NCBI GenBank assembly: GCA_943330835.2
Contig: CALQJH020000016.1
Location: forward strand, 1 to 13,570
Source: Candidatus Kuenenia stuttgartensis
GTDB lineage: Bacteria > Bacteroidota > Bacteroidia > Chitinophagales > Chitinophagaceae
DNA length: 13,570 nucleotides
Reading direction: 5' to 3'
Part shown: piece by piece, positions 3,519-11,904 of the stretch
How positions within the stretch are numbered: position 1 is the first letter of the stretch
Layout of the letters: each line of letters begins with the position of its first letter
The notes under the pieces: generated by a model
What the model was told of the DNA's origin: nothing
What the model saw: the letters and a program-made list of their open reading frames with translations, nothing else
Databases searched by the model: none
Position numbers and translations under genes: made by a program

Positions 3519-3562
3519 TTGGTATAAAAAAGATATCCCTATGACATTTATCAAACTAAGAT

Positions 3563-3576
3563 TTGATTAACATCAT
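3563..3576. promoter_or_regulatory. FNR-like (Crp/Fnr family) palindrome in the usp/ldhA divergent region
   Basis: TTGAT-TAAC-ATCAT matches the FNR consensus TTGATnnnnATCAA at 9 of 10 fixed positions. It lies in the 140-base region between divergent usp and ldhA genes. Its centre (3569.5) is about 41 bases before the start site implied by the candidate ldhA -7 box, and about 64 bases before that implied for usp. These are close to the spacings used by Crp/Fnr activators. The same pattern recurs at 8714-8727. One-mismatch matches are not rare in AT-rich DNA, so the support comes from position and recurrence. An adjacent inverted pair, ATCAAA (3550-3555) and TTTGAT (3562-3567), shares its right arm. 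Confidence 0.45.
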
Positions 3577-6226: not shown

Positions 6227-7201
6227 ATGAATAGCCGAACGTTAAATAATTTTAAATTGGGAATATTTGTATTGTCAGGATTATTATTTCTAATCATCTT
6301 ACTTTATATGATTGGAAAAAATAAAAACATGTTTGGTTCAAATTACACTATAAAAGCAAGGTTTGAAACCATTCAAGGATTAAAACCCGGCAATAATGTA
6401 AGATTTGCAGGTATAGATGCAGGTACAGTGGATAAAATAAATATCATCAATGACACCATAATCGAAGTTGAGATGCTGATTAATAATAAAATGAAAAACA
6501 TCATTAAAAAAAATGCAATTGCCTCCATTGGAACAGACGGTCTAGTAGGGAATAAAGTCGTAAATATCATTTCTATGAAAGAGCAAGCTCCACAAGCAGA
6601 AAGCAATGACCTCCTATCTACAAAAAAACCAATCGATACGGATGAAATGATAAGAACATTGTACAAAAGTAATAACGATATCAACGCAATCGCTGAGAAA
6701 CTAAAGTTAACCATTAGCAAAATAAATGACAGTAAATTTTTATGGTCTGTTCTCGACGATAAAGATTTAGCAAAAAACATAAGTAAGTCTGTCTCAAATA
6801 TTCAACTTGCCACAAATGACATAAAGTATTTATCAAAAGATACCAGGTCAATCATTAATAAAATAAAAAATGGCGAAGGCCCAATTGGAATGATTATAAA
6901 CGATACAGCATTCTCTAATTCATTAACGAGGGCTGTAACAAGTATAAACAACATTGGGACAGAAGCGGAGTCTCTATCCTATAAAATAAAAGATGCTGTA
7001 ACAAAAATTGAAGACAATATTGACAATGGAAAAGGAACGATAAATGCACTGCTAAATGATTCCTTGATGGCAAGAAAGCTAAACAACTCATTGAAAAATA
7101 TTGAAAAAGGCACTGAAAATTTCAATCTTAACATGGAGGCCTTAAAGCACAGCTTTCTATTCAGGGGATATTTTAAAAAACTAGAAAAGAACAAAAAATA
7201 A
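6227..7201 (+). CDS. mlaD: MlaD-type MCE-domain lipid-binding protein
   Basis: A 324-residue membrane-anchored protein with one N-terminal helix (about 11-29) and an MCE domain at roughly 39-118, including YTIKARFETIQGLKPGNNVR (40-59), FAGIDAGTVDKI and ASIGTDGLVGNKVVNI. MCE proteins form periplasmic hexamers that carry lipids to and from the MlaFE core. The 200-residue C-terminal tail is longer than in E. coli MlaD (183 residues in total) and is probably helical/coiled-coil, as is common in Bacteroidota and mycobacterial MCE proteins. Within it a short motif repeats: NGEGPIGMIINDTAFSNSL and, about 58 residues later, NGKGTINALLNDSLMARKL. It is the last gene of the ldhA-mlaEFD run; the terminator array follows. 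Confidence 0.9.
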   Translation: MNSRTLNNFKLGIFVLSGLLFLIILLYMIGKNKNMFGSNYTIKARFETIQGLKPGNNVRFAGIDAGTVDKINIINDTIIEVEMLINNKMKNIIKKNAIASIGTDGLVGNKVVNIISMKEQAPQAESNDLLSTKKPIDTDEMIRTLYKSNNDINAIAEKLKLTISKINDSKFLWSVLDDKDLAKNISKSVSNIQLATNDIKYLSKDTRSIINKIKNGEGPIGMIINDTAFSNSLTRAVTSINNIGTEAESLSYKIKDAVTKIEDNIDNGKGTINALLNDSLMARKLNNSLKNIEKGTENFNLNMEALKHSFLFRGYFKKLEKNKK

Positions 7202-7304
7202 TTCAATTGCTATCATATTGAATTATGCCTATAATCACTTTTTAGAGTTAAGCAATCCCTTACTTTTACCTCAGGTTTTTCATATAGGATATTGGATAAA
7301 TAAC

Positions 7305-7334
7305 GAGCTGGATTTCTATCCGGCTCATTTTTTT
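7305..7334 (+). terminator. Intrinsic terminator, array copy 1
   Basis: Arms GAGCUGGAU and AUCCGGCUC pair over 9 bases with one G-U and enclose UUCU; one A and seven T follow. It is the first strong terminator after mlaD, 104 bases past its stop. The T-run is on the plus side only, so it works in that direction. Confidence 0.85.
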
Positions 7335-7370
7335 GTAATAAATTATCTTAGAAAGCAATCAGTTAATGTA

Positions 7371-7394
7371 GTAACCAAGATCATTTTTGGAAAC
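7371..7394 (+). other. Small conserved hairpin in the repeat spacer (also at 7515-7538 and 7661-7684)
   Basis: The stem CCRAGA-UCAU-UYUUGG is flanked by GUAA and AAAC, which may add two outer pairs across an A-A internal loop. Copies 1 and 3 read CCAAGA with UUUUGG; copy 2 reads CCGAGA with UCUUGG. Both changes keep pairing (A-U to G-U, and G-U to G-C), which suggests selection on RNA structure, though from few changes. Confidence 0.4.
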
Positions 7395-7450
7395 AAATCA
7401 ACCCCTTACTTTTACCTCAGGTTTTTCATATAGGATATTGGATAAAGAAC

Positions 7451-7480
7451 GAGCTGGATTTCTATCCGGCTCATTTTTTT
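7451..7480 (+). terminator. Intrinsic terminator, array copy 2
   Basis: The 9-base-pair stem and UUCU loop are identical to copy 1, followed by A and seven T. It differs downstream by lacking the two bases GT after the T-run. Confidence 0.85.
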
Positions 7481-7594
7481 AATAAATTATCTCAGAAAGC
7501 AATCAGTTAATGTGGTAACCGAGATCATTCTTGGAAACAAATTACCGCCATACTTTTACAACAGGTTTTTCACATAGGATATTGGATAAAGAAC

Positions 7595-7624
7595 GAGCTG
7601 GATTTCTATCCGGCTCATTTTTTT
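7595..7624 (+). terminator. Intrinsic terminator, array copy 3
   Basis: The stem, loop and T-run are identical to copies 1 and 2. The upstream part has CACATAGG where copies 1 and 2 have CATATAGG, a change shared with copy 4. Confidence 0.85.
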
Positions 7625-7740
7625 GTAATAAATTATCTTAGCAAGCAATCAGTTAATGTAGTAACCAAGATCATTTTTGGAAACAAATTACCGCCATACT
7701 TTTACAATAGGTTTTTCACATAGGATATTGGATAAATAAC

Positions 7741-7767
7741 GAGCTGGATTTCTATCCGGCTCTTTTT
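7741..7767 (+). terminator. Intrinsic terminator, array copy 4, directly upstream of pfkB
   Basis: The hairpin is the same, but the A before the T-run is missing and only five T follow. The tract ends 8 bases before the pfkB start codon, leaving no room for a promoter between them. A transcript reaching pfkB must therefore read through this hairpin or start inside the array. An upstream UUGGAUA in the same unit could pair with UAUCCGG of the hairpin and act as an antiterminator; this is inference. Confidence 0.75.
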
Positions 7768-7775
7768 AACTTCAT

Positions 7776-8717
7776 ATGAAATCAACGATACTGACCATAA
7801 CAATGAATCCCTCAATCGACAAAAGCACTTCAATCGATTGTTTAATAGCAGAAAAAAAACTAAAATGCATTGAGCCGAAATCCGAACCTGGAGGTGGGGG
7901 GATAAATGTATCCAGAGTAATTAAAAGATTAGGCAATAATTCTATTGCAGCGTATTTATCTGGAGGAGGCAATGGAGAACTTCTAACCAAATTACTCCTT
8001 AAAGAAAACATTGAAACTAAAACAGTTTCTTGTTTAAACAATACAAGAGAAAACTTAAATGTTTTTGATCAGAAAAATAAGCTGCAGTATAGATTCATCA
8101 TGCCGGGAGCAGAAATTTATGAAAAGGAATGGAAAGCATTAATTAGTGAAATAGAACAGCTTAGCAATATAGAGTACATCGTATGTAGTGGCAGTATACC
8201 GATTGGCGTGCCTGATAATATATGGAGAACTATATCATCAATTGTAAAAAATAAAAAGATAAAATTAATCGTTGATACTTCTGGAAATCCGTTAAAAGAA
8301 ATATTAAAAGATAGTATCTACTTATTAAAACCAAATATCAACGAATTGAGTTCTGTAGTTGGCAAAGAAAAATTAAATACAAATGATGCCATACTGTTAG
8401 GGAAATCATTCGTCTCAAAAGGCAATTGCGAAATCATGGTCATTTCTTTGGGAGAAGAAGGTGCTATATTAATAGAAAAAGAAAGTGTGCATAAAATAAT
8501 CCCGCCATCAATTATAAGAACAAGCACTGTTGGTGCGGGAGATAGCATGGTTGGAGGAATTGCAAGCAAAATAGCAGACAATAAAAGCATATTAGAAGCA
8601 GTGAAATATGGAGTTGCATGTGGCAGTGCAGCAACGCTGAATCAAGGAACTGCATTATGTAACAAAGCCGATGCGGATAGATTATTCCTTAGAATTTCTA
8701 CAAAAGAGATTGTTTGA
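7776..8717 (+). CDS. pfkB: 6-phosphofructokinase II (PfkB family sugar kinase)
   Basis: The 313-residue protein closely follows E. coli PfkB (309 residues) and should phosphorylate fructose 6-phosphate with ATP in glycolysis. Visible landmarks are TITMNPSIDKS, SEPGGGGINVSRVI (37-50, the ribokinase-family first signature), QYRFIMPGAE, VCSGSIPIGVP, LLKPNINEL with K185/N187/E190, and STVGAGDSMVGG, where D256 is the catalytic base. The match of MPGA and of the VGAGDSMVGG region to PfkB favours this over 1-phosphofructokinase (FruK) or tagatose-6-phosphate kinase, which cannot be fully excluded. The start follows the fourth terminator by 8 bases, so expression may depend on read-through. The stop codon is overlapped by an FNR-like palindrome serving the next operon. 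Confidence 0.88.
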   Translation: MKSTILTITMNPSIDKSTSIDCLIAEKKLKCIEPKSEPGGGGINVSRVIKRLGNNSIAAYLSGGGNGELLTKLLLKENIETKTVSCLNNTRENLNVFDQKNKLQYRFIMPGAEIYEKEWKALISEIEQLSNIEYIVCSGSIPIGVPDNIWRTISSIVKNKKIKLIVDTSGNPLKEILKDSIYLLKPNINELSSVVGKEKLNTNDAILLGKSFVSKGNCEIMVISLGEEGAILIEKESVHKIIPPSIIRTSTVGAGDSMVGGIASKIADNKSILEAVKYGVACGSAATLNQGTALCNKADADRLFLRISTKEIV

Positions 8718-8727
8718 TTGTTATCAT
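8714..8727. promoter_or_regulatory. FNR-like palindrome upstream of the ytxH-like gene
   Basis: TTGAT-TGTT-ATCAT has the same ten fixed bases as the site at 3563-3576 and is a 9/10 match to the FNR consensus. It overlaps the pfkB stop codon and lies about 100 bases before the start of the YtxH-like gene, in a 106-base intergenic region. A possible -7 box TATTTTTA (8766-8773; consensus TAnnTTTG) would put the palindrome near -58. Both copies lie in promoter-bearing gaps of functionally related genes. Confidence 0.42.
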
Positions 8728-8823: not shown

Positions 8824-9069
8824 ATGGAAAATTACACAAAAATCGCAATTGGAGTTGCGGCAGGGATTGCAGTTGGAGGTATACTAGGCGTTTTATTTGC
8901 CCCAAACAAAGGAACTGAAACGAGGGCTAAAATAAAAAATGCTGGAACCAAATTAAATGAGAATGTCCAGGAGAAATTAAATAAAGGAAAAGAAAGCCTA
9001 TACGCTATGAAAAAAAACATCCTGGAGAGTCTTGACAATATAGAAGAAAGTACTGGGGAGTATATTTAA
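8824..9069 (+). CDS. YtxH domain-containing protein
   Basis: This 81-residue protein has one N-terminal membrane helix rich in Gly/Ala (about 7-26, IAIGVAAGIAVGGILGVLF), then APNKGTETR and a charged helical tail. That layout is the YtxH/gas-vesicle-like general stress family, where the APxxGxExR step after the helix is the hallmark. The molecular function is not known; Bacillus YtxH is a general stress protein. It is probably the first gene of a small operon with the holin-like gene 30 bases downstream. The leader is A-rich (AAAAAAAGAAACC before ATG), typical for Bacteroidota translation starts. An FNR-like palindrome lies upstream. Confidence 0.85.
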   Translation: MENYTKIAIGVAAGIAVGGILGVLFAPNKGTETRAKIKNAGTKLNENVQEKLNKGKESLYAMKKNILESLDNIEESTGEYI

Positions 9070-10725: not shown

Positions 10726-11805
10726 TCAATTCTTATTTTTTTTGATTCTCTCTTTAAATAGCCTTTCGAATTTTTCAAGCTTTGGCTGAATGACCATTTT
10801 GCAATAAGAGTTATTTTTATTTATTGCATAATAATCCTGATGGTAATCTTCAGCTTTGTAAAAAACTTTGAAAGAATTGAGTTGAGTGACTATTGGATTA
10901 TCATAGACTTTATTTTTGTTCAATGCATCAATAATACTTTTAGCCGTATTATATTGTGATTGATTTCTATAAAAAATTACGGAGCGGTATTGCTCTCCCA
11001 CATCATCTCCTTGTCTGTTATAAGTTGTAGGATCATGCACTGTAAAAAACACTTTTAAGATTTCATCTAATGAAGTTTTTCTCTTATCATAAACAATTTG
11101 AACAACTTCTGCATGGCCAGTATTATCCATACATACCTGTCTGTATGTCGGATTCGGCAATGTTCCTCCTGAAAATCCTGACTCAACCTTGATAACCCCG
11201 TCTAGCATTTCATAAACTGCTTCAACGCACCAATAGCAGCCGCCGCCTAATGTTATCGTATCGATATTGGAATGTTGATTCAATTGTACATATGTCTTGT
11301 CTTGCAAATCTTGTATAGGTTGAAATTCGAGAGAAAGTGAATTTACACAATAGCGTTTACCCGTTTCAGTTGGTCCGTCATCAAACAAATGACCTAAATG
11401 TCCTCCACATTTAGCACATATAATCTCAGTTCGATGAATGCCAAGGGAATTATCCACCTGTGTTTTTATTTTTCCTCCTGCAAGTTCTCGGTCAAAACTT
11501 GGCCATCCACAATGAGAGTCAAACTTCATCTCATCAGTAAACAATTCGTTGCCACAAGCCGCACATTTATAAACACCTTTCTCTTTATTCAACAATAATT
11601 TTCCGGAGTAAGGAGCTTCTGTACCTTTTTGGCGCAATACATAATATTGGTCTTTTGAAAGTTGCTTTTTCCATTCAGCATCTGATTTATTAACGATAGT
11701 AGAATCCGAATGATCAATCTTATTGTTTGATTGCCCACATGCTGTAAAAGAGATCAAAAAAATACTAAGTAATAATCGGAAATTATAACAGACAAGATGT
11801 TTCAT
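10726..11805 (-). CDS. msrBA: Bifunctional peptide methionine sulfoxide reductase MsrB-MsrA, lipoprotein
   Basis: This 359-residue fusion repairs oxidised methionine in proteins: MsrB (about 43-165) reduces the R-sulfoxide and MsrA (about 183-345) the S-sulfoxide. MsrB has the Zn cysteines C81/C84 and C130/C133, CGWPSF (99-104) and catalytic C153 in RYCVNSLSLEF. MsrA has GGGCYWCVEAVY with catalytic C190, then GHAEVVQIVYD and EQYRSVIFY; C335 may be a resolving Cys. I chose the ATG at 11803-11805 because it begins a proper signal peptide with lipobox FTAC (C23); an in-frame ATG ten codons upstream adds only unneeded hydrophobic residues. The enzyme should therefore work in the periplasm, tethered to a membrane. 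The B-A order is the reverse of the common MsrA-MsrB fusion. Both active sites are intact. Confidence 0.92.
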   Translation of the reverse strand: MKHLVCYNFRLLLSIFLISFTACGQSNNKIDHSDSTIVNKSDAEWKKQLSKDQYYVLRQKGTEAPYSGKLLLNKEKGVYKCAACGNELFTDEMKFDSHCGWPSFDRELAGGKIKTQVDNSLGIHRTEIICAKCGGHLGHLFDDGPTETGKRYCVNSLSLEFQPIQDLQDKTYVQLNQHSNIDTITLGGGCYWCVEAVYEMLDGVIKVESGFSGGTLPNPTYRQVCMDNTGHAEVVQIVYDKRKTSLDEILKVFFTVHDPTTYNRQGDDVGEQYRSVIFYRNQSQYNTAKSIIDALNKNKVYDNPIVTQLNSFKVFYKAEDYHQDYYAINKNNSYCKMVIQPKLEKFERLFKERIKKNKN

Positions 11806-11904
11806 AAAAAAAGATATTAAAATGAATAGGTGCATTACTAAACATAAACAAAGAAATATCAGTAATGTTCTGTCGATTTCAATTGAATGAACATTAGATT
11901 ATGG

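Follow-up and report, generated by a model that had tools for sequence, protein, structure and literature searches.

Four tandem copies of a putative FopS-like small RNA gene between mlaD and pfkB in a member of the Bacteroidota

Why should four near-identical terminator hairpins stand in a row directly in front of the start codon of a carbohydrate kinase gene? The array in question lies between mlaD and pfkB in the window, by which we mean the whole 13,570-nucleotide stretch of DNA analysed here. The first-pass annotation of this DNA favored a stacked attenuator or transcriptional riboswitch controlling pfkB and listed, as the alternative, four tandem small RNA genes that each end in their own terminator. 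Comparison with related genomes turned against the first interpretation and gave good support, at the level of sequence, to the second. We consider it very probable that the array consists of four tandem non-coding RNA genes of ~60 nt with their own promoters and terminators, which would act by FopS-like repression, and that it is not an attenuator of pfkB.

The array and its predicted transcription units

The tandem repeat is real: TRF finds a single array at 7261-7767 with a period of 146, and the spacing from copy to copy is 146, 144 and 146 bases, in agreement with the 144-146 bases first noted. All four units carry an identical stem-loop of 22 bases (9 bp with a UUCU loop), at 7305-7326, 7451-7472, 7595-7616 and 7741-7762, and the window holds four terminator-like sites against a mean of 0.5 in 50 shuffles. 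The T-run of copy 4 extends to 7767, 8 bases 5′ of the pfkB ATG (7776), and with 5 T is shorter than those of copies 1-3 (A plus 7 T). Other details of the initial description also held, in that UUGGAUA is found in every one of the four units and the flanks differ between copies, with 3-21 differences per pair in the 46 bases upstream of the arm. The hairpin is not the only constant part, since a 30-base arm 5′ of it is nearly identical too (1-2 differences per copy pair).

Each unit combines a TAnnTTTG-type promoter box with a predicted RNA of ~60 nt, in which a strongly conserved 5′ arm, GGUUUUUCA(0-2 nt)UAGGAUAUUGGAU, is followed by the terminator stem. The four predicted genes lie on the + strand at 7274..7334 (copy 1, arm GGTTTTTCATATAGGATATTGGAT, T-run 7328-7334), 7420..7480 (copy 2), 7564..7624 (copy 3, arm with CACATAGG) and 7710..7767 (copy 4, arm with CACATAGG and the shortened T-run at 7763-7767). 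When single copies were folded, the arm stayed mostly open next to one strong hairpin; some minimum-energy structures had weak pairing in the arm. When the window was compared with Rfam no family reached its gathering score, which makes it probable that public genomes leave these genes unannotated; the weak matches that did appear (MicC, AaHKsRNA41, ctRNA and others) were set aside as chance matches to terminators.

The promoter-like box is TACTTTTA in all four copies, at 7261..7268, 7407..7414, 7551..7558 and 7697..7704 (+), which is -13 to -6 relative to the GG at the predicted RNA start. It is of the TAnnTTTG type with a different last base, and its designation as a -7 element comes from position statistics: across 128 copies (the window's and those of named genomes), the TAnnTTTG letters peak 5-12 bases 5′ of GG. 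Of 203 unique copies, 127 had a TAnnTTNG-type box shortly 5′ of GG, compared with 183 of 8120 windows farther upstream, while 25 of the 203 had a CGT box that may be ECF-like and 51 had neither type, these classes being assigned by simple ad hoc patterns that count the four window copies by allowing A for the last G. The available text of PMC9723704 places the sigma-A box TAnnTTTG of Flavobacterium psychrophilum at -12 to -5, and by that position transcription would start at GG or adjacent to it. Each unit may be transcribed separately from its own promoter, and dosage may be the reason for the tandem copies.

Farther upstream, each window copy has a possible Crp/Fnr-like box on the + strand, at 7226..7237, 7372..7383, 7516..7527 and 7662..7673. 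Each differs by one mismatch from TGAYNNNNRTCA, which we take to be a site of the type used by Crp/Fnr proteins, and each stands exactly 36 bases before GG. The window holds 24 such one-mismatch sites where chance predicts 25.5, so that only the position of the boxes is informative. Exact TGAYNNNNRTCA sites numbered 9 in 186 non-redundant copies × 69 positions, with 5 at 36 nt and 2 at 35 nt before GG, and sites with at most one mismatch lay 35-36 bases 5′ of GG in 15 of 29 cases, the box having been first spotted by eye and then counted on those very copies. Those seven well-placed exact sites came from four genomes of the genus (5) and from one Niastella caeni locus (2). A Crp/Fnr-type regulator could activate this clade's copies from about -42. 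Exact TGAYNNNNRTCA boxes also occur between usp and ldhA (window 3542-3575) and just 3′ of pfkB (8715-8726), and the one at 3564 is about as far from a promoter-like box as its counterparts in the sRNA units are; three exact boxes in the window are not significant (28 of 200 shuffles).

Distribution, conservation and genomic context

Throughout, genus and family are those of G001, the nearest genome compared, with 21% of sampled 31-letter words in common; judging by the titles of named carriers, the family is presumably Chitinophagaceae. With one unit as the query, 57 of 59 sampled genomes gave a match at E ≤ 1, including all 36 of the genus (G001 counted), and outside the genus such matches were weak (best E 0.014). 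The phage and plasmid collections gave no match to one unit; the window's sRNA type is present on one viral contig, L155. Model R1, built partly from genus genomes so that some of them supplied its rows, recovered the unit in 38 of 38 genus genomes at 2-21 copies each. The same model matched 72 of 82 family genomes vs 3 of 166 others in a sample of the order, and 14 of 15 vs 1 of 377 in a sample of the phylum. Among the outside matches G037 was variant-like, G146 and G048 were unlike the sRNA family and G639 matched partially.

The arm pattern occurs in at least 119 stretches of named genomes. The 119 matches listed comprise 78 from Chitinophagaceae, 5 from Chitinophagales without a family, 6 from Sphingobacteriales, 29 from Bacteroidota without an order and 1 with a Streptomyces title. 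The last (L145, a MAG bin titled Streptomyces griseus) is probably a bin that was contaminated or wrongly labelled. Several genomes hold tandem arrays, at spacings of 102-298 bases; by the exact-arm pattern, 5 of the 119 named loci listed contain one.

The aligned matches share GGTTTTTCA, 0-2 bases, TAGGATATTGGAT, a spacer, the hairpin and a T-run, with two exceptions that depart by one or two letters. The first 23 bases were exactly GGTTTTTCATAGGATATTGGATT in 157 of 194 copies gathered by the arm pattern, a count that includes overlapping loci, with some copies entered twice, and copies that the pattern itself selected for the arm. Conservation of the arm is thus partly ascertained, because most copies were collected by its pattern; arm variants were also recovered by searching with the model, which does not require the exact arm. 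In the window's own clade UUUUUCA is followed by two extra bases, and copies 3-4 have CAC in place of CAU; together these changes weaken a strict anti-AUG seed. The terminator stem covaries: in 58 non-redundant copies 94% of cells were paired and 7 of 8 pairs had changed on both sides. Among 500 shuffles, none attained the covariation score, 3 attained the count of such pairs and 55 that of pair types, the structure having been derived from the alignment on which it was scored. Between relatives the stem sequence changes, while the arm hardly does.

That last pattern bears on the suggestion that the array serves solely as an insulator, blocking read-through from the mla operon into pfkB. Four good terminators placed consecutively would suit such a role, but the stem is the part that varies and the arm the near-constant one, and an insulator leaves the conserved 5′ arm, the promoter-like boxes and the multicopy family unexplained. 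We regard such a role as highly improbable. A dispersed mobile repeat of the REP type without an RNA function we find hardly credible: it would account for the many copies per genome and the tandem arrays, but not for a promoter-like box and a terminator held at fixed places despite differing upstream sequences, nor for the presence of the element in all 38 genus genomes and the retention of copies beside mlaD.

The neighborhood bears on the relation to pfkB. Gene order in the window is mlaF-mlaD-array-pfkB-ytxH, with mlaD at 6227..7201, the pfkB-family carbohydrate kinase gene at 7776..8717 and the ytxH-like gene at 8824..9069, all on the + strand. The upstream neighbor mlaD is kept in G001, G006, G012, G024 and G027. 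In G012 the order is mlaF-mlaD-four copies-pfkB on a stretch that stops before any ytxH, and in G001 one contig ends in mlaF-mlaD-copy while another carries array-pfkB-ytxH; in both genomes pfkB closely follows the last copy. In G027 (three copies) and G024 (one copy) the copies are flanked by mlaD and, as the first gene after them, ytxH, and pfkB is absent from that interval; pfkB is therefore not a constant partner of the sRNA copies.

Control of pfkB by a stacked attenuator or transcriptional riboswitch in its leader, in which UUGGAUA would compete with the terminator stem, draws on the short distance from the last T-run to pfkB, on the lack of any promoter-like box seen between copy 4 and pfkB, and on the place of pfkB after the last copy in G001 and G012. 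Against it, G024 and G027 keep sRNA copies at that place without pfkB, the element stands at many other loci, and each unit has a promoter-like box of its own. The proposed competition of UUGGAUA with UAUCCGG fared no better: 79% of cells can pair, yet covariation is not beyond shuffles. We rejected attenuation of pfkB on the synteny of G024 and G027 and on the missing covariation of the alternative pairing, and consider it very unlikely. The kinase gene may owe its expression to transcription that reads through the shorter fourth terminator, a route that the lack of a promoter-like box seen after copy 4 makes plausible.

Several other features of the surroundings were recorded. Copies adjoin usp-like genes at L140 and L003, and some sRNA loci (L049, L055, L059, L067, L112, L149) lie within 8 kb of genes that, from the protein start, we take to be gldM/gldN-like. 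Within the window, SelR (MsrB) and PMSR (MsrA) domains are joined in one protein encoded at 10726-11835 on the minus strand.

Likeness to FopS and related RNA types

Taken together, comparison of sequences points to a promoter-like box lying 6-13 nt 5′ of a GG start, a conserved arm, a covarying terminator, many copies across the family and varied tandem spacing, and such an architecture resembles that of FopS. As described in the available part of PMC11697453, FopS is a translation repressor sRNA of Bacteroides (Rfam RF04319) with 14 members in B. thetaiotaomicron; its RNAs of 65-70 nt pair near the start codons of susC mRNAs, the RRM protein RbpB antagonises FopS and binds its 5′ part, and its range as given there is Bacteroidaceae and one phage. 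Like the window's type, FopS is a multicopy RNA of ~65-70 nt in which a single-stranded 5′ arm precedes a Rho-independent terminator, and it has a housekeeping-type promoter, a trait that extends to 127 of 203 copies of the present family (the four in the window included, A being allowed for the last G). The FopS arm, GUUUUUCAU-GG-UAUURGAUUU, can be aligned with GUUUUUCAUAGGAUAUUGGAUUU. Both types reach viral contigs, the FopS arm on several and the window's type on one, and RRM_1 proteins were present in 8 of 8 genomes tested.

The two differ in several respects. The window's type falls far under the Rfam gathering score, belongs to another family of the phylum, forms tandem arrays and gave no susC target signal at the 30 starts compared, and some of its copies have other promoter-like boxes or the possible Crp/Fnr-like box. 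The RF04319 match of the window was 17.6 bits against a gathering score of 56. None of five relatives exceeded that cut-off (best 35 bits, E 0.004, L156 in G018), and a phylum sample gave 0 of 198 at E ≤ 1e-6. Among the 20 RF04319 loci retained, one was of a sister type described below (L156), one was a copy of the family (L165) and two were possibly others (L158, L172); the rest were chance-like.

We scored the likeness directly. The Rfam consensus of FopS starts GUGUUUUUCAUgGUAUUAGAUUUAAGG, and the consensus of the sRNA family aligned to the FopS arm GUGUUUUUCAUgGUAUUAGAUUU with a local score of 27, which 16 of 20000 dinucleotide shuffles equalled (7 of 20000 in a repeat). The window's own arm scored 19, as did at least as well 1060 of 20000 shuffles, a weak similarity. 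For the part after UUUUUCAU the score was 15 (1743 of 20000), which means that the likeness of the window's type to FopS comes largely from the common UUUUUCAU start.

A sister sRNA type in the same bacteria, GGUUUUUCAUAGGAUAAGGUUUAAUGGUUAAU plus a hairpin, is closer to FopS than the window's type is. Its arm UUUUUCAUAGGAUAAGGUUUAAUGGUUAAU aligned to that of FopS over 31 columns with a score of 35 (1 of 20000 shuffles), and its tail by itself scored 21 (204 of 20000). This type also provides the best RF04319 match in the five relatives (L156), which is still under the cut-off. We found TTTTCATAGGATAAGGTTTAATGGTTAATGG, with variants, plus a hairpin in 14 of 30 loci examined as well as in L156; these loci include L411, L417, L420, L421, L423, L425, L430, L435 and L440, antisense of position ~1501. 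The sister type has an apparent ECF-type promoter (TGCAAC...ATCT).

Further arm variants were noted. A third, TTTT(C/T)ATAGGGTACGGATTA plus a hairpin, occurs at L199, L200, L217 and in G566. In genus g204, probably Chitinophaga, the arm is GGTTTTTCATAGGATATGGTTAAAAT (L215, L218, L229, L242 and others), and G620 has four copies at 194-base steps. The FopS arm GTTTTTCATGGTATTAGAT was found on 34 IMG/VR viral contigs (L441-L474) with varied hairpins.

We suggest that the window's RNAs belong to an uncatalogued, strongly conserved FopS-like family, as the similar start and the same architecture indicate, and that common descent with FopS is likely. Whether the relation runs deeper seems to us evenly balanced: FopS, the window's family and the sister types could be branches of an old phylum-wide sRNA superfamily with the anti-start-codon seed UUUUCAU-GG, set apart from one another by their promoters (sigma-A, ECF-like or Crp/Fnr-activated) and by the second half of the arm. 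The alignment of the sister type with the FopS arm makes this somewhat more probable than it was before. If so, each set of paralogues would couple its own signal to a common mechanism for blocking translation (or titrating RRM proteins), and tandem duplication would amount to dosage control. Parallels by description can be drawn with other RNAs covered in the available text of PMC11697453. GibS of B. thetaiotaomicron has the R1 seed in common with FopS and pairs at translation starts, but differs in its second seed, R2, and in promoter type; LhrC1-7 of Listeria and Qrr of Vibrio are multicopy siblings in unrelated bacteria. We found nothing on point in the open-access literature on such RNAs in Chitinophagaceae or Chitinophaga. 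If the family is FopS-like, sRNA control near start codons would extend to other, largely free-living Bacteroidota, and its many natural variants in arm, promoter and copy number offer material for finding targets and protein partners.

Target predictions and protein binding

On the analogy with FopS, the arm would be the seed, with UUUUUCAU pairing with translation starts of the AUGAAAAA type; the rest of the arm would set specificity and/or bind an RRM protein, and translation of sets of mRNAs would be repressed. Searches for a matching target signal gave no clear excess over controls. At 1602 starts of G566 (2.0 of 3.46 Mb) the arm was predicted to pair with no better energies than 12 + 12 shuffled arms, and at 30 susC starts the mean of -9.04 kcal/mol was as low in 168 of 200 tail-shuffled and 98 of 200 fully shuffled arms, start codons in both tests being chosen by rule. 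Sites of VATCCTATGAAA in 78 genomes numbered 145, compared with 147 sites of a permuted pattern and 90 of a backwards control; when 30 loci of each were examined, a loose count gave 9 starts for the real pattern vs 6 for the control, no meaningful difference. Matches of 10 bases reached 23 start regions, a number attained by 10 of 300 fully shuffled arms and by 235 of 300 arms in which UUUUUCAU was kept and the rest shuffled, and the latter figure explains the matches by the common ATGAAAAA start. A scan of 798 starts at named loci likewise returned mostly generic ATGAAAAA matches, together with two arm copies antisense at ORF starts.

With these tests negative, what argues for repression is the analogy with FopS and the seed sequence, and start-codon pairing through UUUUUCAU is best treated as a proposal by analogy. 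A serious rival, which overlaps our explanation as a sub-variant of it and which we judge possible if rather unlikely, is that the arm acts as a protein sponge, binding an RRM or other RNA-binding protein whose free level is set by copy number. The negative target tests fit such a role, as do an arm that is conserved throughout and whose two modules are joined by a linker of 0-2 nt, and the RRM proteins in all 8 genomes; RbpB, moreover, binds the 5′ part of FopS in Bacteroides according to the available text of PMC11697453. The closest known relative nevertheless works by base-pairing, and we retain FopS-like repression by four separately transcribed RNAs as the preferred explanation.

Two further observations concern start regions. 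The pattern BTATCCTATGAAA had 87 sites vs 30 for its backwards control, and of 30 such sites examined 14 belonged to the sister sRNA type and 6 stood at the start of ORFs of at least 200 aa. As a single case, the start region of a gene for a 153-aa secreted protein in G566 (L271) contains two 11-base matches to the arm.
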